Source: a virus
IMG/VR virus record: IMGVR_UViG_3300042902_000127
Coordinates: 1-21,237 of that record
Length of the DNA stretch: 21,237 nt
Direction: 5' to 3' (one strand)
Under the pieces are notes generated by a model. The model saw only the letters and a program-made list of their open reading frames with translations, did not search any database and had not been told where the DNA came from. Within the stretch, counting starts at the first letter, position 1; every line of letters starts with the position of its first letter. Shown here piece by piece: positions 6,420 to 21,148 of the stretch. The position numbers were made by a program, and so were the translations under genes.

Positions 6420-7259
6420 TCAAATTGGCATAAATGTAGTTGGTGGTCCAGATGGACCATGTGGCGTCGGATGGATATGAGTATTGAATATCGTCTTAGT
6501 GTATGATAATGGACTATATCTGTGGATCATTTCCAATGTTCCTATAACAATTCCGCCAGTGATGATTCCTGGTGCACCACCATAATATTGGCATTGAATC
6601 ATACCAGGAACAGCAAACGGTAATCCCGATGATATTCCACCAAGTGTTGAAATACCAGCAAGTGGATTTGTTGACCCCTCCACTCCAGCATGTATTCCTG
6701 TTCCAGCAACAACATCATTCGTTGATGTTAATTGTCCAGCAGTCAATTTACCCTCAACAGTGACTTCAGATTTTATATTGAAATCATTAGAAGACACACT
6801 GACTGAACCTAATCCTAAAGGATTACTTGCAATATCAACATCACCATTTCCTATAATATTTGTTGAACCACCAACAATCAAATCATAATCTCCATCAACA
6901 ACAGTTCTCATATCTCCACCAACATGCATATGTAAATCTTTCTGCACATCAATTGCGGCATTTCCTTCAACAACAATCGTGCATGTACCCTTAATTAAAA
7001 CATGTCCATTAGATTCGACAATATGAAAACTTTCGCCCAAAATATGATTGACTTGTGTGCCATCTGGGTGCATCTCAACGAATGTACCAGTTCTGTGAGA
7101 TATTCTAACACGCTCTCTTTCTGGCGTATCGTCCATTTCAAAATAATGTCCAGAATTTGTTCTCGTTACAGTATTATAAGGATATTCTGGAGGATAAGAT
7201 GTGTTGGCAGCCGATTCTGGTTCAGTTATTGAAAATTCGCCTAAATTTTTATCTGACAT
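6420..7259 (-). CDS. Central spike protein, gp5 C-terminal beta-helix type with His-x-His tip
   Basis: 279 aa. After a short N-terminal segment, residues about 48-150 form short valine/glycine-rich repeats typical of the intertwined beta-helix of gp5C/VgrG spikes: RISHRTGTFVEMHPDGTQV, FHIVESNGHVLIKGTCTIVV, IDVQKDLHMHVGGDMRTVV, and DYDLIVGGSTNIIGNG. The C-terminus reads NTHIHPTPHGPSGPP (residues 259-273). This His-x-His-Pro pattern is the metal-binding tip of P2 gpV and Mu gp45 type spikes. The gene starts 1 nt after the stop codon of the OB-fold hub gene, with only a weak Shine-Dalgarno, so the two are probably translated together. In T4 both parts are one polypeptide (gp5) cleaved after assembly; here they are separate genes. 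It is the membrane-piercing needle under the hub. Confidence 0.85.
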   Translation of the reverse strand: MSDKNLGEFSITEPESAANTSYPPEYPYNTVTRTNSGHYFEMDDTPERERVRISHRTGTFVEMHPDGTQVNHILGESFHIVESNGHVLIKGTCTIVVEGNAAIDVQKDLHMHVGGDMRTVVDGDYDLIVGGSTNIIGNGDVDIASNPLGLGSVSVSSNDFNIKSEVTVEGKLTAGQLTSTNDVVAGTGIHAGVEGSTNPLAGISTLGGISSGLPFAVPGMIQCQYYGGAPGIITGGIVIGTLEMIHRYSPLSYTKTIFNTHIHPTPHGPSGPPTTFMPI

Positions 7260-7260
7260 A

Positions 7261-8379
7261 TTATACTAACACCGGTTGATAATTGCTTTGATTGAATTTT
7301 GAGAAACCATCATATGCTTTTGAAAATAATTCCTCAACTTGTGCATCTGTCATTGCTGATGGTTGAAACAGTGCTTCTACGACTGATACGGGACCAGCAT
7401 AAATTGTTGCGGCATTATTCAATAACGTATTCGTTTCTGATAATATATTTTGGACTTCACTAGTGACAGACGAGACATCTATACCAACAACATCTGATCC
7501 TTCAGATACTCCTCCAGAAATAATGTCGAATGCTGTTGATGAAATTAGATTGTATAATTTATTCAAACAGTCTGTAAAATATGCGGCAATGTCAGCAGGA
7601 AGACTCAATATGTATTCTATGACACGACTAATATCCCTCACGACTTCAACAATTTTATTTAACTCCAAAATAATGTCATTCATAAATTTATTAATAGATT
7701 TCAGAGTTTTAGTTATATGTTCCAACATAGATTTGATCGCAGAAGAACCTGGCGATATACCGATTGCATCTAAGATTGCTTTTACCGCTTTCCTCAAAAC
7801 AACAACTATATTTTTAACAACAGTCTTTGCTGACGAAACTTGTTTTTTGGTGAGAAACGATATATCACAAGAATGTGATTTTAAAGAGTTCATTATCGAT
7901 ATAGTTGTGCCAACAACTTCACCCCTAGAAACTTTAGGTGTTGTGGGTTCACCCTGTTGTGGTGCAATTTCACCGGGAACTTCTGTTTCAGCAGTTTTAA
8001 TTGTTTTTGCTGGTACGGGTTGATCTGCAAGTTTCTGTAAATATTCCCTCTTTTGTTGACCTGTCAATTTAACATATGATGTATTATTAACTAATCCTGG
8101 CATAATTCCCAAGATGACTGGCATTTGTTTGTTCTTACCGTCTAGAAAGTAACCGAAAACCCAATCGCCAACATTTGGAACAGATATTGTCTTACTTCCA
8201 TTCAAAGGTATGGAAGGTATTGCCCAAGGTAAGGCTTCAGTTGGCAATTCTGTGCCATCAAATGAATGTGTTCCTATAATTCGAATCCTACATTGTCCAA
8301 TCTTTAGTGGATCGTTCGAATTATCCTCAACAATACCAACCCAAAAATCTGAATCTATATTTACATTATCTTTATTCAT
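7261..8379 (-). CDS. 5: Baseplate hub protein, gp5 N-terminal OB-fold type, lysozyme domain replaced
   Basis: 372 aa. Residues 11-95 are a gp5/VgrG-type OB fold: FWVGIVEDNSNDPLKIGQCR, then ALPWAIPSIPLNG, then VGDWVFGYFLDGKNKQMPVI and LGIMPG. This domain sits on the gp27 trimer and connects hub to spike. A Pro/Thr/Glu-rich linker follows (about 115-155). Where T4 gp5 has its lysozyme domain, this protein has about 210 residues of predicted amphipathic helix (158-372, for example KTVVKNIVVVLRKAVKAILD), with no Glu-Asp-Thr lysozyme signature. The ATG overlaps the stop of the gp27-like gene (ATGA), with AGGAAAAG upstream. The OB fold is a strong call; the function of the helical region is unknown. 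Confidence 0.85.
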   Translation of the reverse strand: MNKDNVNIDSDFWVGIVEDNSNDPLKIGQCRIRIIGTHSFDGTELPTEALPWAIPSIPLNGSKTISVPNVGDWVFGYFLDGKNKQMPVILGIMPGLVNNTSYVKLTGQQKREYLQKLADQPVPAKTIKTAETEVPGEIAPQQGEPTTPKVSRGEVVGTTISIMNSLKSHSCDISFLTKKQVSSAKTVVKNIVVVLRKAVKAILDAIGISPGSSAIKSMLEHITKTLKSINKFMNDIILELNKIVEVVRDISRVIEYILSLPADIAAYFTDCLNKLYNLISSTAFDIISGGVSEGSDVVGIDVSSVTSEVQNILSETNTLLNNAATIYAGPVSVVEALFQPSAMTDAQVEELFSKAYDGFSKFNQSNYQPVLV

Positions 8380-9659
8380 TTTACTTTTCCTGGGGTATCT
8401 TCTACAGAATCTGTAACAACTTCAATTATAGTATCGTGTTTGTTGTTTGATATGATATGTCTTGTCGCAACAATCAAGTATTTTCCATATAAAGTTTTGT
8501 CTTTCATATCTTCTGGATCATATGATGATGTTTTTTGTTTTTTCAAATTGACATTGAGTCCCGAAGTCAATAAGAAGTTTCCAGGTAAAGCAACTTTCAT
8601 TCTTTTAGAGAATAAGTGTGTCAATATAGCTCTTCTCTGATATGTATAATATTGTGGCGTCTCGTCCAAGTTTAATGATGTTGGATCGTTATTCTTTATG
8701 TATGATGAATTTTCCCTGAGTATTGGTGTCGGATAAACAACTCGCCTCGAGCCAGTCATTTCTGTATTAAACTTACCATCTTTATTTGTGTCTTGCGATG
8801 GTGTATAATTTCTATTCATCGATTTATCTTTGAACATATCATCAAAAGATATGTTTTGTTGAATGATAACTCTAGTGATTGGATCAAAACCAATGAACGT
8901 GCCAGAATATACACCAGAAACTATGCTGTCCAAATAATCAAACTGTGAAATAATTTCATAATCTCTTGCACCAAAAAATTCTCGACTAACATCTCTGTTG
9001 ATATTTTTCGGTTCAAATAAAATATCCATCACTGTGTCTTGATTTTTGAGATCTGATAATGAAACGAAATTATATCGATATGAGTTCTCAAAGAATAAGA
9101 AATTTGGCAAGTTTTTATCATTAGTTGCACGTTTCGAACACCAGATCAGAGATTCAAATGGACTCAAATTAGGCACAACGATTTTTCTAACTCCTAAACT
9201 ATTACCAACAACATAGTCTGAAGATTCTAGTTTTAGTTTTTGTGATAAAACATATTCTGCCATATCGGAATATGTTCCTTGAACATAATTGTTCAATGTT
9301 TGTTGTTGTGAATATACGAATTCATCTGAAACAAAGTATAAGATGTAAGATTCATTGTTTAAGTTTTGTGAACTCTTATCTGTTTGTTTGTAGATATGAA
9401 ACATCTTATTGATTCTAAGTTCATCTGAGTCTTTAGATATATCAATCTTGAGATACTCTGAACCATCAAATTTTAATATACTACTTAAACCAACAGCGTC
9501 ATTTATAACAATTGTTCCAGACATACATGGTTGAAGTATATGATCGAAAATATTCAATTCTATAAATGTGTTCCTTAGATCCAAATTGCCATAATTTGTG
9601 ATCAAAGACATCTCTTTAATTTTATATTGTGTTGTTTGTGAAATATCCATTGTAGACAT
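8376..9659 (-). CDS. 27: Baseplate hub protein, gp27-like
   Basis: 427 aa (T4 gp27: 391 aa). The N-terminal part has the tail-tube-like hub fold pattern: ISQTTQYKIKEMSLITNYGN, then FIELNIFDHILQPCMSGTIV, then GSEYLKIDIS. The middle reads DMAEYVLSQKLKLESSDYVV and LSPFESLIWCSKRATNDKNL, a hub domain pattern found in gp27, gpD of P2 and Mu gp44. The C-terminus has FSKRMKVALPGNFLLTSGLN and a final beta strand pair GKYLIVATRHIISNN and TIIEVVTDS. gp27 trimers form the hub ring that adapts the sixfold tube to the threefold spike. It lies immediately before the OB-fold gene (4-nt overlap) and starts inside the gp53 stop (TAATG). The second in-frame ATG (codon 4) is an alternative start. Confidence 0.82.
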   Translation of the reverse strand: MSTMDISQTTQYKIKEMSLITNYGNLDLRNTFIELNIFDHILQPCMSGTIVINDAVGLSSILKFDGSEYLKIDISKDSDELRINKMFHIYKQTDKSSQNLNNESYILYFVSDEFVYSQQQTLNNYVQGTYSDMAEYVLSQKLKLESSDYVVGNSLGVRKIVVPNLSPFESLIWCSKRATNDKNLPNFLFFENSYRYNFVSLSDLKNQDTVMDILFEPKNINRDVSREFFGARDYEIISQFDYLDSIVSGVYSGTFIGFDPITRVIIQQNISFDDMFKDKSMNRNYTPSQDTNKDGKFNTEMTGSRRVVYPTPILRENSSYIKNNDPTSLNLDETPQYYTYQRRAILTHLFSKRMKVALPGNFLLTSGLNVNLKKQKTSSYDPEDMKDKTLYGKYLIVATRHIISNNKHDTIIEVVTDSVEDTPGKVK

Positions 9660-12177: not shown

Positions 12178-12756
12178 ATGGCATACTTAATAGATCGATT
12201 AGAGCAAGAACTTGGCACGACTAACTACGAACCAGGATCAAGACGATCCAGAACTTGGTTACGTAAAAAGATCAACGACCTTAAACCTACTGCTCAAACA
12301 GTAATGGCAGATAGGCAGAGACTCAAGAATTCTGCGTTTATTGGAGGTATGTACTTTTTCTATTATGATCCTAAGCACAAGAAAACGTTGCCATATTACG
12401 ATACATTCCCATTGGTAATCCCAATAGAACAATACCCAGACGGGTTTTTAGGGTTGAATCTACATTACATTCACCCAAAGCAACGAATTCTTCTTTTAGA
12501 CACATTGAGTGCATATAAGACGAATAATAATTATGATGAAAAAACTAGATTGAAATTGAGTTATGATTTTTTGAGGAGAGTATCATCGGCATATCAAGCA
12601 ACTCCTTGCATTAAAAGATATCTTTTCACTCAAGTAAATTCTAGATTTTTAGAGATAACTGCTAATGAATGGGATATTGCTATTATGTTACCAGTTGAAC
12701 AATTTACCGGCGCAACATCTAACAAAGTTTGGAACGACTCAAGGAAGAAATTCTAA
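12178..12756 (+). CDS. Conserved-looking tail/head-region protein of unknown function, 192 aa
   Basis: I have the impression of a conserved T4-like marine phage family but cannot name it with confidence. The N-terminus is basic and helical (RRSRTWLRKKINDLKPTAQT, about 22-41). A central aromatic block follows: FIGGMYFFYYDPKHKKTLPY (about 54-73), then YDTFPLVIPIEQYPDGFLGL and NLHYIHPKQRILLLDTL. The C-terminus has IKRYLFTQVNSRFLEITANE and DIAIMLPVEQF. No signal peptide, membrane segment or nuclease motif is seen. It stands between gp4 and a tube-like protein and overlaps the latter by one base (TAATG). A virion or assembly role is likely from position. A DNA-end protector (gp2-type) role is a possibility I cannot support from motifs. 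Confidence 0.8.
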   Translation: MAYLIDRLEQELGTTNYEPGSRRSRTWLRKKINDLKPTAQTVMADRQRLKNSAFIGGMYFFYYDPKHKKTLPYYDTFPLVIPIEQYPDGFLGLNLHYIHPKQRILLLDTLSAYKTNNNYDEKTRLKLSYDFLRRVSSAYQATPCIKRYLFTQVNSRFLEITANEWDIAIMLPVEQFTGATSNKVWNDSRKKF

Positions 12757-13484
12757 TGGCATTTTCACCTAACGATTTTATATCGAATATCAACTCTAGA
12801 GGAGGTCTCACAAGATCAAATCTCTATGCGGCAGTTATTCCTATTCCAGTGTATATTGACAACTTTGTGACTTATAGTGTAACCGATGCATTGGAAAATC
12901 TAGGCAATAATATTGTGAACTCTTTTGTGGATCCAATAACTAGTTTTGTCAATCAAGCATTGGGTCGTGGTCCTATCAACGGACAATCAAGAACTGCAAG
13001 TGGAGATTTTTCTAGAAGTTTGGCACTATTGTGCGAGGCTGCTGAGTTACCTGGAAAATCATTGATGACACATGAAGCAAGGGTGTATGGTCCAACATAT
13101 AAAGTTCCTTATCAAGCACAATATGGAGAAATGAGTCTAACATTTCTTTGCACAAATGACTTCAGTGAAAGAACTCTTTTCGATAGATGGATGGAAGCAA
13201 TTCTTCCATCTGACACAAATAATCCTAGATTTCCAAAGAGTGATAAATCTAGATATATGACAAATATACAAATAATAAAATATGATGATACTGCTCAAGA
13301 AATATACATTATAGAATTGCAAGATGCATTTCCAACATCAATTGCTGCCCAACAAATGAGTTGGCAAGATGATGGTTTCTTAAGATTGACTGTACAATTC
13401 TCTTATCAATTTTACAAAGTTATATTTCAGGGTGGTTTCAATCCATCGCAACAAAATCTCACTACATTTGGCTTGGGTAGATAA
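12756..13484 (+). CDS. 54: Tail-tube-fold protein, gp54-like baseplate-tube junction (or gp19-like)
   Basis: 242 aa with the start at 12756, where the ATG overlaps the previous stop (TAATG) and an AAGGAAG Shine-Dalgarno lies about 8 nt upstream; an earlier in-frame ATG at 12729 would lie inside the preceding gene without such a site. The opening MAFSPNDFISNINSRGGLTR, then CEAAELPGKSLMTHEARVYG, then YGEMSLTFLCTNDFSERTLF and WMEAILPSD form the tube fold. The terminal strand pair has AFPTSIAAQQMSWQDDGFLR and LTVQFSYQFYK. This is the common tail-tube/hub fold. T4 gp54 (320 aa) and gp19 (163 aa) share the pattern: a proline-containing loop, a strand ending in P-x-S, then a terminal beta strand. 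An N-terminal arm absent from the simple tube protein and the tail-assembly context favour gp54. Confidence 0.65.
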   Translation: MAFSPNDFISNINSRGGLTRSNLYAAVIPIPVYIDNFVTYSVTDALENLGNNIVNSFVDPITSFVNQALGRGPINGQSRTASGDFSRSLALLCEAAELPGKSLMTHEARVYGPTYKVPYQAQYGEMSLTFLCTNDFSERTLFDRWMEAILPSDTNNPRFPKSDKSRYMTNIQIIKYDDTAQEIYIIELQDAFPTSIAAQQMSWQDDGFLRLTVQFSYQFYKVIFQGGFNPSQQNLTTFGLGR

Positions 13485-13502: not shown

Positions 13503-14240
13503 ATGGCATTACCTAAAATTGACGTACCAATATATGAAATCGAACTTCCTTCAAATGGAAAGAGCATTAGATTTCGTCCGTTTACAGTAAAAGAAGAAAA
13601 GTTGTTTTTAATGGCATCACAATCTGAAGATGCTGATTCAATATTTAAAACAATCATACAAGTATTAAACAACTGTATTCTAGATGAACTTGATATTGAA
13701 AAAACTTCATTATTTGATATTGAATTTTTGTTCCTAAATCTTCGTGCAAGATCGATTGGTGAAGTTGTTGAACTATCATACAAATGTAATAACGAGGTTA
13801 CTGGTGAGGATGGACACAGCAAAACATGTAACAATGTAGTCAATATAGATGTTAATGTTTTAGATATTAAACCATCGGGTAATGCATCTAAAGATAACAA
13901 AATTCAATTCTCACCAAAATTGGGTATGGTGATGAAATATCCCACACTCTCTATATTAGAATTGAGTAAAGATAAGACTGATGAACTCGACATCATTATT
14001 GAGATGATAGTTGCTTGCGTTGATTATATTTACGATGAAGATAATATCTATTATGCTAAAGACAGCACAAAAGAAGAATTGATGGAATTTTTGGATTCAC
14101 TACAATCAAAAGAACTCGATAAAGTTAAAGATTTTTTTGAAGATTTACCCAAATTAGAAAAAGATTTGGATTTTAAATGCAATAAATGTGGACATGAAGA
14201 AATTATTAAATTAGAAGGCATACAAAATTTTTTCGTGTAA
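13503..14240 (+). CDS. 26: Baseplate hub assembly protein gp26 (T4 baseplate chaperone family)
   Basis: 245 aa (T4 gp26: 208 aa). The N-terminal PIYEIELPSNGKSIRFRPFT followed by VKEEKLFLMA (about 9-38) is the family signature. FDIEFLFLNLRARSIGEVVE (71-90) continues it. Cys95 and Cys109 surround a Gly/Asp loop, and Cys226-x2-Cys229 with His231 lie near the C-terminus; together they could form a split zinc ribbon. The protein acts in hub assembly and is not known to stay in the mature T4 particle. GGAG is 7 nt before the ATG. The last codons read through A AAT TTT TTC just before the stop, which is a slippery site leading into the gp51 frame. The gene immediately precedes gp51 as in T4 (25-26-51). 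Confidence 0.88.
   Translation: MALPKIDVPIYEIELPSNGKSIRFRPFTVKEEKLFLMASQSEDADSIFKTIIQVLNNCILDELDIEKTSLFDIEFLFLNLRARSIGEVVELSYKCNNEVTGEDGHSKTCNNVVNIDVNVLDIKPSGNASKDNKIQFSPKLGMVMKYPTLSILELSKDKTDELDIIIEMIVACVDYIYDEDNIYYAKDSTKEELMEFLDSLQSKELDKVKDFFEDLPKLEKDLDFKCNKCGHEEIIKLEGIQNFFV
14225..14234 (+). other. Programmed -1 frameshift site joining gp26 to gp51
   Basis: In the gp26 frame the bases read A AAT TTT (14225-14231), an X XXY YYZ heptamer, overlapped by T TTT TTC (14228-14234), a second one. Slipping back one base enters a frame that is open from 14210 to 14425, has no ATG, GTG or TTG before 14291, and encodes gp51. The zero-frame stop TAA is at 14238. The fusion would have 243 gp26 residues plus 65, in total 308 aa. 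No strong downstream hairpin or upstream internal Shine-Dalgarno is obvious. Confidence 0.8.
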
Positions 14241-14428
14241 TTTTTAGTCATGATAACTTAGGTAATTTCTTTCAAACTAATTTTGCTTTAATGCAACATC
14301 ACAAATATAGTTTGACTGAATTGGATAATATGTTACCTTGGGAAAGAGATGTTTATGTAAGTATGCTTATGAAATATTTGGAAGAAGAATCTGAGAGAAT
14401 AAAACTACTAAATCAGCAGAGAAAATAA
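14231..14428 (+). CDS. 51: Hub assembly protein gp51, expressed as -1 frameshift extension of gp26
   Basis: 65 codons in the frame -1 to gp26. The product reads FSHDNLGNFFQTNFALMQHH, then KYSLTELDNMLPWERDVYVS, then MLMKYLEEESERIKLL. The LPWERDVYVSML block is the pattern seen in the second part of tail assembly chaperones (the T part of lambda-type GT and gp51 of T4-like phages). No ATG, GTG or TTG precedes the conserved FSHDNLGNFF segment, and the first ATG (14291) lies after it. Production as a gp26-gp51 fusion is therefore most likely. The stop TAA touches the next gene's ATG (TAAATG). An ATT start at 14240 is a weaker alternative. The family call relies on motif and on its place between gp26 and the tape-measure-like genes. 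Confidence 0.8.
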   Translation, partial: FRVIFSHDNLGNFFQTNFALMQHHKYSLTELDNMLPWERDVYVSMLMKYLEEESERIKLLNQQRK

Positions 14429-15943
14429 ATGGCAACATTAGCCGATGTAATACGAAAACGAAGAGAATCTGGACAAGGAGTTGGACAATCACTTGCCGGA
14501 AGTCTTAAGGAAAAACTGAAAGAGAAGATTGATCCTAGAAGATTCTTAAATCAGTCTGGGATCATAACAGCATTGTTTCCGAAACTTAAAGCGTTCAAAG
14601 CATCAGGTTCACGTGGTGTTGGTTCAGAACTGCAAAAGAGGAGTGTTGAACTTACCGGAAGTTCTTCTTCATTGTCTAGTGGATCTTTAAGTAGAATAAA
14701 ATTAGATTCTGAAATAACTGCGAAAAATAGTATGGTTCTTCCTGCATTGGCTCGGGATATGAATATCATGCGCCAAAATATCGCAAAACTTCTAAAAGAA
14801 TTTGGCGTTAAACCGACATATAGATCCGATAGATTCTTCAAGAAAAGTAAAGATCGAGAAACTGAATATGAAAGTGCAATATCGACTGGTTCCAAATCAC
14901 CTGAAAAATTAAATAAATCCGACAATGAAAAAGAATCGTCTGGTGGAATATTATCAATATTAGGAAAAATTCTACCATTTGTAACTTCTATTGGTGGAAT
15001 ATTAATATCTTCTATTGGAAAATTGAAAGGACTTGTTACTGGTTTTCTAAGTATGGCGATTAAACCGGTAATGTCTTTAGTTCAATCAGTTTTTTCTGGA
15101 CTAGTAGTTTTGGTAACATCAATACTTGGTAAAATCTTAAAGAGTGTTTTGAGAATATTCAGTTTGTCTAATATGTCGAAAATATTAGGTAGATTCTTAA
15201 TAGGTACAGTTGGCACAGGACTTATTGCCGCATCACTTGCCGCTGTTGCCGCAACATATGGATTAAATGCAATTTCTAATAAATTCAAACAGGATAGTTT
15301 GGATAAGTTCAATGCTGATCCAAGTCGATCGGCAAAAGATGCCATAGAATCAGAGAAAACTTTTGGAAAAGTTGGTGCTAATGCTCTAGGAATTGGTACA
15401 CAATCCGTCAAAGAAAATTATGTTGCATCAGAATTAATGAAGACTGATCCAACATTAACTGCAGGTCAAGCATTGAATAAATCTAGTCAAATCTTAGAAG
15501 GCAAAGATCCTAATGGAGCATCTGCACCAAGTGAATTTTCTGGCATGGATACTGATGGTGCTTCAGATGGTATGCAATTGGATCCTGTATATGCTGAACT
15601 TGTACGTACAGCAGAGATTTTATCTACAACAGGAAATGTCGAATCTAAAATAACTCAAGACCAGAGTAACATTACTGATACAAATCAAAAAGCAATAACA
15701 CCACCACAACAAGTGCAAAACCCTGCAACACAATTACAGGGACAAACTATTGGATCACAGACCCAAGATAATAAAGAAAATATTATGGGCATTGTCGAAG
15801 TTGGTGAACCTGAAACAGTAGTTGCTCCAATAAATCAACAAAACAATTCTACTAGAGAAATCACTCAAGATAAAATCCCAAGTGCCGTAAATGATGATAT
15901 TGTTTATTATTTTGGTGGAGGTGTAAACAATGTCTACGCTTAG
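14429..15943 (+). CDS. Tape-measure/hub-like protein, paralog A
   Basis: 504 aa. The N-terminal motif TLADVIRKRRESGQGVGQSL with SLKEKLKEKIDPRRFLNQSG and ALFPKLKAF (residues 3-56) is nearly repeated in the next gene. A second shared motif is DRFFKKSKDRETEYESA (134-150). Residues about 172-280 are strongly hydrophobic and contain several possible membrane segments (for example ILPFVTSIGGILISSIG and LIAASLAAVAATYGL), then a polar Gln/Asn/Thr-rich C-terminus. Hydrophobic stretches inside a long helical protein directly after tail chaperones are typical of tape-measure proteins; T4 gp29 has 590 aa. The ATG abuts the gp51 stop, with only a weak AGAGAAAA ribosome site, so it is probably coupled. No sequence match to gp29 was recognised; the role is inferred from layout. 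Confidence 0.6.
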   Translation: MATLADVIRKRRESGQGVGQSLAGSLKEKLKEKIDPRRFLNQSGIITALFPKLKAFKASGSRGVGSELQKRSVELTGSSSSLSSGSLSRIKLDSEITAKNSMVLPALARDMNIMRQNIAKLLKEFGVKPTYRSDRFFKKSKDRETEYESAISTGSKSPEKLNKSDNEKESSGGILSILGKILPFVTSIGGILISSIGKLKGLVTGFLSMAIKPVMSLVQSVFSGLVVLVTSILGKILKSVLRIFSLSNMSKILGRFLIGTVGTGLIAASLAAVAATYGLNAISNKFKQDSLDKFNADPSRSAKDAIESEKTFGKVGANALGIGTQSVKENYVASELMKTDPTLTAGQALNKSSQILEGKDPNGASAPSEFSGMDTDGASDGMQLDPVYAELVRTAEILSTTGNVESKITQDQSNITDTNQKAITPPQQVQNPATQLQGQTIGSQTQDNKENIMGIVEVGEPETVVAPINQQNNSTREITQDKIPSAVNDDIVYYFGGGVNNVYA

Positions 15944-17525
15944 TTCACTCATATCGAAAAGAAGAATCTCTGGACAAGGCGTTGTTAGTTCTTTGGGTGG
16001 TAGTTTGAAAGATAGATTGAAAGAGAAAATTGATCCTAGAAGACTATTCAATCAGAATGGTGTAATGACATCACTGTTTCCTGGTTTGAAATCATATAAC
16101 GCATCGACTAGTTTTTCACCGAAAGAAAATGTTATAAATGATCCTATTTTACAAGACATATCAAAAAGTATGACTGTCCTTGCAAAAAAAACGAGTGTAT
16201 TGAAAGAACTTTCTCGTGACGCTAGAAATATGTCAACGAATTTGAAAAAGTTCATCAACATGCTTGGTAAACAAAAGGCGGCAGAAAGTGTAGACGCATT
16301 TTTCTTAAAATCTGATGAACGTGAAAAGTTGTATGAAAACACTAAACTTGATCCCATGTCAAACTCACCAGAAAGACAATCTAAGCAGAAAAAGAAACTT
16401 GGTGGTCTGATGGGAACACTACTAACAGTGGGACTTGCTGGAGTTGGTTATTTGACATATGATTTCCTGATGAATGGTGGAAATTCAATTGTTGCTAAAA
16501 CTTATGAGAAAATTAAAAATAAATTTATTCAACTGAAAATTGAATTTATGGATTATGTGATGAACACTGTAACTCCAAACATGGAAAAACTGTGGAGCGA
16601 TATTAGTAAACTTTCTGAAGATAGTTTGAACGATATCGTTGATAGACTACTCGATGGATTGTCGATTGGGAATATACTCAAATCTTTAGATAGTGACGAA
16701 TCTTCTATAGATTCTATGATGAAAGAGATTGAGAAATCCACAAACAACTACAAAAATAAGATGTCGGAATCGATCAACAATTTTTCTTTTTTTCCCGAAG
16801 CAAAAGCATCAACTTTGCCATCAGCATTAAGATCAAAAAGTCAACAAGATTTTCGTCAAACTGGTGTCGAAGATATTGATGCATCAACCAATACACAATT
16901 GCCTTCATTACAACAAAAACTTCTAAAGCGAGAGTCTGGCGGTAATTACAGAGTGATCAATACTATTGGTTATGTTGGTGGTTATCAATTTGGCGCAGCC
17001 GCACTGGAAACTTTAGGATATATTAAAACAGGAGCATCAAAACAGGGCAATCGTGTTTTAAAAGACTCGTCTGTTTGGACTGGAAAAAATGGTGCAAAAA
17101 GTTTAGATGATTTTCTATCAAGTCGTTATATACAAGATACTGCATTTCAAGAAAACGTTAGATTCAACGAGAGAGTGTTGAAAGATATTGGCGTCATCAA
17201 TAATAAAACAACAGAAAAACAAAAGTCTGGTCTTTTAGCAGTGGCACACTTACAAGGTGCTGGTGGTGCTAGAGATTTTTCTCGTGGTATAAACAAAGCA
17301 GACGCATATGGCACAAAATCTTCAGAGTACTTTAAACTGGGTTCTTCAGCGACATCAATTAATGAAATGTCATCATCTATTATCACAAATGAAAATATTC
17401 CAACAACTAAAGTTAAAACAGTGATCGTTGCAACGAATAGAGAAAATAATACAACAATCATAAAAAATAACAATTCAGTTATTCAACAAGATTACACCAA
17501 ATCTCTGATTGGCAACAATTCATAA
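15930..17525 (+). CDS. Tape-measure/hub-like protein, paralog B, with lytic transglycosylase-like C-terminus
   Basis: 531 aa. Residues 3-58 repeat the N-terminal module of the preceding protein (LISKRRISGQGVVSSLGGSL, then KDRLKEKIDPRRLFNQNG, then SLFPGLKSYNAS); DAFFLKSDEREKLYEN (122-137) repeats the second. One hydrophobic segment lies at about 158-182. The C-terminal domain starts with LLKRESGGNYRVIN (331-344, putative catalytic Glu335), then GYVGGYQFGAAALETLGY (347-364) and LAVAHLQGAGGARDFSRG (436-453), a pattern of SLT/lysozyme-like peptidoglycan hydrolases. It could open the wall during DNA entry. The tail is Asn/Thr-rich. The ATG overlaps the previous gene by 14 bp and has a GGAGGT Shine-Dalgarno 8 nt away. 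It is the last gene of the operon, closed by a terminator. Confidence 0.72.
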   Translation: MSTLSSLISKRRISGQGVVSSLGGSLKDRLKEKIDPRRLFNQNGVMTSLFPGLKSYNASTSFSPKENVINDPILQDISKSMTVLAKKTSVLKELSRDARNMSTNLKKFINMLGKQKAAESVDAFFLKSDEREKLYENTKLDPMSNSPERQSKQKKKLGGLMGTLLTVGLAGVGYLTYDFLMNGGNSIVAKTYEKIKNKFIQLKIEFMDYVMNTVTPNMEKLWSDISKLSEDSLNDIVDRLLDGLSIGNILKSLDSDESSIDSMMKEIEKSTNNYKNKMSESINNFSFFPEAKASTLPSALRSKSQQDFRQTGVEDIDASTNTQLPSLQQKLLKRESGGNYRVINTIGYVGGYQFGAAALETLGYIKTGASKQGNRVLKDSSVWTGKNGAKSLDDFLSSRYIQDTAFQENVRFNERVLKDIGVINNKTTEKQKSGLLAVAHLQGAGGARDFSRGINKADAYGTKSSEYFKLGSSATSINEMSSSIITNENIPTTKVKTVIVATNRENNTTIIKNNNSVIQQDYTKSLIGNNS

Positions 17526-17553
17526 AAAACCCCACCGAAGTGGGGCATTTTTC
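17524..17553. terminator. Bidirectional rho-independent terminator
   Basis: CCCCAC (17530-17535) pairs with GTGGGG (17540-17545) around a CGAA loop. On the plus strand ATTTTTC follows the stem; on the minus strand the loop reads TTCG and the stem is followed directly by TTTTTT. It lies exactly between the stop codons of two converging genes: the tape-measure paralog B and gp32. The minus-strand version is the stronger. Confidence 0.93.
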
Positions 17554-19925: not shown

Positions 19926-20492
19926 CTAGTTTTTATAAAAAATATGACTACCAATTTGTACTGTTTTTTCTACTTTCTTACTCCAATACGGGGTAACATA
20001 ATCCGCATGGAAGTATATTGCTTCATCTGTTATATCATACATGTGTTCATGATATAGATAGATCAATACTGCTAAATTGTATATCTTATTATACAACACT
20101 TTCTTGGGTTTTGTCAACTTCTTTTTTGTGCCAACCCATGAAAATTGCCAAACTTTACCGTTATTTTGATGAACGACTTTACATATTGTATTTGGATATC
20201 GTTTAGATTCGACACGGTTCATTGTTACCATACCAACTGCAAGCCAACCTATACTACCTTCACCCTTAGATTCGTGGTACATATTTTTCGTGAGACATTC
20301 CAATTCTTTTTTTTCTTTCTTGGAAAAAATTCTCGTGTTGATTGGTAATGGTGCGAGATAGTCTTTCACTTTTATCTTATGTGTTTTGATCGGATAACTT
20401 GTAGCATACGAGGACTCTTGTGACAGAGATAGAAATACAGCGGCGATCAATAAAAATAAACCAATTGATAAAGCGATGATATTATTTTTCAT
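19926..20492 (-). CDS. SleB/CwlJ-type cell wall hydrolase with N-terminal anchor, probable endolysin
   Basis: 188 aa. The ATG at 20492 overlaps the previous stop (TAATG); a TTG three codons earlier is poorly spaced from its ribosome site. Residues 5-25 are hydrophobic (IIALSIGLFLLIAAVFLSLS), followed by SSYATS, so the protein is exported or membrane-anchored. The catalytic domain begins CLTKNMYHESKGEGSIGWLA (about 66-85) with Glu74 and Glu78, then VGMVTMNRVESKRYPNTICK, WQFSWVG, and ends AIYFHADYVTPYWSK plus IGSHIFYK. These are the motifs of the Hydrolase_2 (SleB) family of peptidoglycan hydrolases. A signal-anchor endolysin is the likely role. It is encoded among replication genes, not with the tail, and no holin is seen in the window. 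Confidence 0.85.
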   Translation of the reverse strand: MKNNIIALSIGLFLLIAAVFLSLSQESSYATSYPIKTHKIKVKDYLAPLPINTRIFSKKEKKELECLTKNMYHESKGEGSIGWLAVGMVTMNRVESKRYPNTICKVVHQNNGKVWQFSWVGTKKKLTKPKKVLYNKIYNLAVLIYLYHEHMYDITDEAIYFHADYVTPYWSKKVEKTVQIGSHIFYKN

Positions 20493-21148
20493 TAGTCCCA
20501 AAGTCCTCTGTAATATGTTCCAAATAATCTTAATCCATTATCGATTCTTTTTTGTTCTTTGGCCATACCTTCATAGTCACATTCGTAAGTATCATTAGGA
20601 CCAGAAACCATTTCACTGTGTCCATCTTCGAGTTTTTTCCATTGTATATCATGTTTACCTGAACGGTACTTTTCTTCCCAATCGTAAGAGTATGATTCAA
20701 AAGCAAAGATCATTTCATTAAGAACCCAATCCCAACGATCATGCAAGTCATAACCTTTTTTCTCTGTGTCTTCATTGTAAAATTCAAAACACGCCTGATT
20801 AGAATGATCTTCAGTATTTGAAGTTCTCATGTATTCAGGGACATCTTCTAATTCAACAATCGGTGAGCCATGTTTATCTTTCTTTAATTGCTTCAACATT
20901 GGTAAAACGATTGTAGCAAGTGTTGAGTCCATGCTCCACGTATCCCAACGGTCAATCTTTACGTATTCAACACGAGGGTGAATCTTATCTAGAAACCATT
21001 GAATACCTTTTGAAATTGGCGTTAATCTGTTTGACCATTTTTCAACAATTGGATCATCATAATCTATATCACGGCGATAGACTACTTTTTCTAAAAAAGT
21101 ATATGGTGAATACCAATGATTACGATATTTGCTTATGTAGACTTTCAT
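20492..21148 (-). CDS. Tryptophan-rich phage protein of unknown function, 218 aa
   Basis: I have seen this architecture in marine T4-like phages as a hypothetical protein but know no function. The start has AGGA 7 nt upstream. Notable blocks are VYISKYRNHWYSPYTFLEKV (3-22), VEYVKIDRWDTWSMDSTLAT (about 60-79), then IVLPMLKQLKKDKHGSPIVE, and RWDWVLNEMIFAFESYSYDW (about 138-157) with EEKYRSG. Trp and Tyr are strikingly frequent. A segment between about 105 and 135 is polar and probably variable. No membrane segment, nuclease motif or metal ligand cluster stands out. It is followed by the lysin gene with a one-base overlap, so the two are co-translated. Confidence 0.85.
   Translation of the reverse strand: MKVYISKYRNHWYSPYTFLEKVVYRRDIDYDDPIVEKWSNRLTPISKGIQWFLDKIHPRVEYVKIDRWDTWSMDSTLATIVLPMLKQLKKDKHGSPIVELEDVPEYMRTSNTEDHSNQACFEFYNEDTEKKGYDLHDRWDWVLNEMIFAFESYSYDWEEKYRSGKHDIQWKKLEDGHSEMVSGPNDTYECDYEGMAKEQKRIDNGLRLFGTYYRGLWD

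Follow-up and report, generated by a model that had tools for sequence, protein, structure and literature searches.

A predicted lysozyme-like domain on a tape-measure-like tail protein, and wall-hydrolase exchange next to gp26 in a T4-like phage lineage

Tail genes of the window

The window, meaning the whole stretch of DNA that was analysed, is an IMG/VR virus record of 21,237 bases, a metagenomic contig. Matches to Pfam and PHROG profiles identified T4-type tail genes within it, namely gp26, gp53, a gp48-like tube cap and a gp19-like tube. The features relevant to this study are as follows.

6420 to 7259, minus strand: C-terminal beta-helix (needle) of gp5, in its own ORF (phrog_430, E 2e-41)
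7261 to 8379, minus strand: N-terminal part of gp5 with OB domain and a helical extension, in which no hydrolase was detected (phrog_430, E 2e-26; Gp5_OB at 0.0012, sub-threshold)
8376 to 9659, minus strand: hub protein at the gp27 position (phrog_350 tail protein, E 3.7e-65)
12729 to 13484, plus strand: gp19-like tail tube protein (phrog_45, E 9.5e-36)
13503 to 14240, plus strand: gp26-like baseplate hub protein, used as the synteny anchor (PF12322, E 2.2e-60)
14291 to 14428, plus strand: 45-aa ORF in the place of the short gp51 of cyanophages, a candidate identity based on position and size only
14429 to 15943, plus strand: first paralog, 504 aa, with the N-terminal family common to both paralogs and a hydrophobic helical middle, without hydrolase
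15930 to 17525, plus strand: second paralog, 531 aa, with a helical N-terminal half, linker, lysozyme-like domain and C-terminal tail
16905 to 17363, plus strand: predicted lysozyme-superfamily (lytic-transglycosylase-like) domain of the second paralog, residues ~326-478 (phrog_27932, AlphaFold2 and structural matches)
16932 to 16934, plus strand: GAG codon of the putative catalytic Glu335 (alignment of homologues)
17529 to 17546, no strand assigned: bidirectional hairpin resembling an intrinsic terminator, between the second paralog and the gp32 gene on the opposite strand
19926 to 20501, minus strand: SleB-like cell wall hydrolase with a hydrophobic N-terminus, a candidate separate lysis enzyme (PF07486, E 9.4e-23; kept in relatives)

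The ORF, coordinates and motifs of the second paralog agreed with a preliminary description of this DNA, with the motif RESGGNY beginning at residue 334. That the two tail proteins are paralogs was likewise borne out, residues 1-165 sharing 39% identity (E 4e-29). A full-length model of the second paralog (mean pLDDT 67.3) predicts long helices at residues 72-139 and 161-283, followed by a disordered linker (285-324), the lysozyme-like domain and a disordered tail. The domain had been described as C-terminal; this placement is correct, but it does not form the extreme C-terminus, as it ends at around residue 478 and is followed by a tail of ~50 residues.

The same description had called the protein tape-measure-like. 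A long helical region, one of the criteria for the tape-measure class, is present in the predicted structure, and position, helical prediction and sequence character all fit the term and suggest a tape-measure role for the second paralog. However, homology to T4 gp29 was not found: in profile searches the gp29 tape measure family (phrog_1283) was listed for neither paralog and for none of 7 related contigs. The N-terminal family of the paralogs had no match among the phage records searched and therefore, as judged from sequence, represents a lineage without an isolate in that collection. A relationship of this family with cyanophage T4-GC13/14 or with a 643-aa protein of ORM_20 was looked for and not supported (hhalign probabilities of 0.1-26%, no HMM hit).

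The gp5 of the window is divided between two ORFs (7261-8379 and 6420-7259) lying one base apart in different frames, and the T4 gp5 arrangement of OB domain, lysozyme and beta-helix in one product is not present. Neither ORF gave a hydrolase match with Pfam and PHROG profiles, in agreement with the earlier statement that the gp5-like hub protein has no lysozyme domain; the gp5 pieces of ten relatives also yielded no hydrolase with Pfam. Many relatives likewise encode the needle in an ORF of its own, several of them with a third ORF for the OB part. Elsewhere the OB domain and needle are joined directly (L074), and the N-terminal ORF reaches ~600 aa in L027, L029, L031 and L049. In the window, the helical extension of this ORF (residues ~165-340) matches tape-measure profiles weakly (phrog_1535, E 6.7e-6).

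The lysozyme-like domain and its carriers

Residues 286-480 of the second paralog match phrog_27932, 'baseplate hub subunit and tail lysozyme' (E 1.1e-37). When phage records were searched with the domain by tblastn, it matched gp5 in T4-like phages of rhizobia, agrobacteria and ochrobactra at ~38-46% identity. On these two lines of evidence, the proposed domain stands well above chance. Against Pfam Transglycosylas (PF06737) the domain scores 19.9 bits, below the gathering cut-off of 27, and it is not classed as a member. Alignment of 13 diverse homologues revealed that Glu335, the Ser that follows it and positions occupied by Asn, Gly, Gln and His are invariant; in L086 the Glu is retained alongside a one-residue deletion. 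A profile of the 13 homologues compared with solved structures gave only a weak match, to RpfE, whose ES motif aligned with Glu335, and neither the full protein nor a second profile matched any solved structure by sequence. A scan of genome contigs for the domain found no relative. The 13-row alignment was too diverse to serve as a query against the collection.

Structure prediction, which had been put forward as a check, returned a lysozyme-like fold. The AlphaFold2 model of the domain, built with eight sequences, has a pLDDT of 81.8 and a pTM of 0.77, with the loop directly after Glu335 poorly predicted. Foldseek gave no significant match in the PDB (best E 1.0), and its list was rich in lysozymes and lytic transglycosylases. 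Re-alignment with VIA gave Z scores of 8-9.3 to several lytic transglycosylases and lysozymes, headed by destabilase (9.3), Cj0843 Slt (9.1), phi6 lysin (9.0), MltC (8.9) and MltE (8.5). Nearly all of the VIA rows listed have a lysozyme-type fold; the one clear outlier is a GPCR (Z 7.0). Amongst the BFVD viral models the best match was gp5 of Atu_ph04 (TM 0.87). The domain is thus predicted to belong to the lysozyme superfamily, with Glu335 as its putative catalytic acid. Poor modelling of the loop after Glu335 would suit a structural or glycan-binding remnant that has lost catalysis, but the invariance of Glu335 and its neighbouring motif residues in 13 distant homologues on unrelated carriers, together with the presence of other hydrolase families at the equivalent position in relatives, makes such a remnant very unlikely.

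In phiM9 the domain lies within gp5, at residues ~337-491. Downstream of it, the beginning of the needle was recognised by matches to a solved central spike (9f4a, over residues 521-607) and to T4 gp5 (over residues 521-597, from T4 residue 376); the domain therefore sits where T4 gp5 keeps its lysozyme. Given that the domain is found inside gp5 of rhizobial T4-like phages, the difference in carrier between lineages (gp5 or the gp26-adjacent protein) is real. The domain also opens giant proteins of the podovirus-like contigs L002 and L003, and lies at the N-terminus of a giant protein of pYD6-A (Schitoviridae; annotated as virion RNA polymerase). In a tree of the domain, gp5 copies form one group, whereas gp26-adjacent copies are scattered and require about three changes; the window copy pairs weakly (85/80) with the L002/L003 internal proteins and not with gp5. 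The preliminary description had the hydrolase moved to the paralog. The change of carrier holds, whichever its direction, and the tree does not favour an origin in gp5. Descent from gp5 by a single move is unsupported, and repeated acquisition by gp26-adjacent proteins is plausible.

Hydrolase exchange at the gp26-adjacent locus

A gp26-based scan recovered 80 loci of the same layout: the tube gene and gp26, followed by one or two genes and then by gp32 on the opposite strand. From the window and its IMG/VR relatives 62 gp26-adjacent proteins were analysed, comprising 14 first copies and 48 single or second copies, and all 62 fell into a single N-terminal BLAST cluster. A seed search recognised a hydrolase in none of the 14 first copies, compared with 36 of the 48 single or second copies (Fisher p 3e-7, kinship ignored). 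In the remaining 12 of the 48 no hydrolase was recognised by this search, and at least two of these are truncated. In single-gene relatives the N-terminal family and a hydrolase occur on one protein.

At least eight hydrolase types were found: GH24, GH19, M23, Amidase_2, phage lysozyme2, an SLT-like type, the phrog_30077 type and the lysozyme-like domain of the window. Pfam matches in the 62 proteins were to Phage_lysozyme2 (9), Transglycosylas (6), M23 (5), SLT (4) and SLT_3 (3), and more rarely to Amidase_2 (2), Phage_lysozyme/GH24 (2), GH19 (2) and Glucosaminidase (1). Those above the Pfam cut-off included GH24, GH19, M23, Amidase_2, Phage_lysozyme2 and SLT_3, GH24 being encoded next to gp26 in two relatives (L064, L071). 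These comparisons, which are of sequences, show the locus to be modular: the N-terminal family is constant and hydrolase families are exchanged.

Two further features of the C-termini were noted. The gp26-adjacent proteins of L020, L022, L041 and L061 have related C-terminal regions (residues ~295-680) without a seed match; in L061, the one of the four that was scanned singly, this region has no Pfam match. These regions may be a further hydrolase type. In many of the 62 proteins, by eye, a short tail containing tyrosine and aspartate follows a low-complexity stretch, and the C-terminal ~30 residues of many carry a motif of the type [ST]xY[DN]xx...L..L irrespective of hydrolase type. This recurrent motif is possibly a hub anchor.

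Cyanophage counterparts, role and known systems

Frequent annotations of the Kyanoviridae genes that separate gp26/gp51 from the gp27 position are endolysin, SleB, chitinase, M23-like and GH104. In cyanophage S-WAM1 the second gene after gp26 (gp012) contains the lysozyme-like domain of the window at residues 744-881, and the GH19 of L090 matches ORF208 of S-CREM2 (E 1.7e-34). ORF208/209 of S-CREM2 and ORF213/214 of S-SCSM1 occupy the same gene position as the window pair (positions checked). Mass spectrometry detected both pairs in purified virions, the former with 73 and 71 unique peptides (PMC10665884) and the latter in S-SCSM1 (PMC9602691); both studies interpreted them as endolysins or as possible cargo of the virion (PMC10665884, PMC9602691). 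An HMM search detected no match between the N-terminal family of the window and these counterparts; the link with cyanophages is one of position and shared hydrolase types only. Extension of the module to cyanophages is probable.

Taken together, these data suggest that the product of 15930-17525 is probably a tape-measure-type tail protein of the virion and bears the wall hydrolase used by the phage at entry; we infer its enzymatic activity, its packing inside the tail, its role as tape measure and the timing of its action. The preliminary description had suggested that the job of the T4 gp5 lysozyme is done here by a protein of the tube or hub. The lysozyme-like predicted fold, a gp5 without hydrolase and the pattern in relatives argue for this, and it is further supported by the positional counterparts found in virions of two cyanophages (PMC10665884, PMC9602691). 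Under this reading, the largely helical first ~285 residues would occupy the tail tube or hub, and the flexible linker would keep the lysozyme-like domain near the baseplate, with Glu335 as catalytic acid. On sheath contraction the gp5 needle, in which no lysozyme was seen, would pierce the outer membrane. The second paralog would then leave the tube and its domain cut glycan strands locally, allowing the tube and DNA to pass. In duplicated genes only the helical part is left in the first copy, the predicted enzyme being on the second.

The annotation of the cyanophage counterparts as 'endolysin' raises the alternative that the second paralog serves lysis at the end of infection. It lies within the tail cluster, however, is a paralog of a hydrolase-free protein and has no evident export signal, and the window holds a separate SleB-like hydrolase, conserved in relatives, that is the likelier lysis enzyme. 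This genomic context, the separate gene and the virion data for the counterparts (PMC10665884, PMC9602691) led us to set the endolysin aside as extremely improbable.

A second alternative is that the protein is internal to the virion or ejected from it, bearing a wall hydrolase without being a tape measure, and that tail length is set by the first paralog or another protein. This would accord with the N-terminal position of the domain on the giant proteins of L002, L003 and pYD6-A, and with the duplicated genes, where the hydrolase is always on the second copy and the first is purely helical. Moreover, tail length does not neatly follow gene length. Cyanophage counterparts of 933+722 aa accompany a 138 nm tail in S-N03, 1565+1456 aa a 418 nm tail in S-CREM2 and 893+780 aa a tail of 72-114 nm in S-SZBM1; the longest genes go with the longest tail, yet not in proportion. 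Nevertheless, single-gene relatives combine the shared N-terminal family and hydrolase on one protein, and no other long helical candidate was noticed among the tail genes of the window, so we consider this alternative unlikely.

The 418 nm tail of S-CREM2 is the longest reported for a cyanomyovirus, and the two virion 'endolysins' of this phage (L106, 6484-15555) summed fit ~0.14 nm per residue. A rule by which summed gene length x 0.15 nm gives tail length was rejected; it fits S-CREM2 and fails for S-N03, S-H34 and S-SZBM1.

More broadly, and more tentatively, the gene or genes after gp26/gp51 in this large uncultured T4-like lineage and in marine cyanophages may encode a carrier of tape-measure type on which a wall hydrolase, as an exchangeable cassette, stands in for the gp5 lysozyme, a generalisation that has somewhat less than an even chance of being correct. 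If true, swapping glycosidase, amidase and peptidase types at one site would adapt the chemistry of entry to that of the host wall, and 'endolysin' would be the wrong label for many cyanophage enzymes that act at entry. The locus suggests a place for the entry hydrolase in an abundant T4-like group where gp5 lacks one, and its natural domain-swap series at a single site could be used to ask if host range is limited by wall chemistry. A further suggestion is that 'endolysin' labels at the gp26-adjacent position of cyanophage genomes be re-read as tail proteins.

Several known systems are comparable. T4 gp5 cleaves the wall at entry from the spike (PMC3004832); it shares with the proposed role in the window a baseplate-associated, wall-cleaving lysozyme-superfamily domain, but this is a GH24 domain within the spike, whereas that of the window is of another subfamily on another carrier. 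The rhizobial T4-like phages (Pootjesviridae phiM9 and RHph_N34; also ORM_20, LG08 and Atu_ph04; phrog_27932) have a homologous domain with the same invariant residues, placed in gp5 ahead of the needle, whereas none was found in the gp5 of the window. The cyanophage 'endolysins' (S-CREM2 ORF208/209, S-SCSM1 ORF213/214, S-WAM1 gp012) resemble the window pair in gene position and in hydrolase domains or annotation, but have no detectable N-terminal homology and have been published as endolysins or as possible cargo of the virion rather than tail hydrolases. Tape measures of siphophages that include a hydrolase domain, such as T5 Pb2 and those of TM4 and phiIPLA35 (PMC6116005), similarly place the enzyme on a tube-filling protein, but in non-contractile tails that are not T4-like. 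The published precedent is Sit of the myophage P1, a tape measure protein with an SLT domain in a phage whose gp5 lacks lysozyme (PMC9024508). As proposed for the window, the gp5-like needle lacks lysozyme and a long helical protein has a lytic-transglycosylase domain close to its C-terminus. Sit, however, is one protein of 1140 aa whose SLT domain can be recognised, whereas the window has two copies of the gene, belongs to a T4-like lineage (gp26/gp53/gp48) and has relatives among which the hydrolase varies by exchange. The arrangement is already known from P1; an exchangeable form of it in a T4-like lineage, probably extending to cyanophages, is new.
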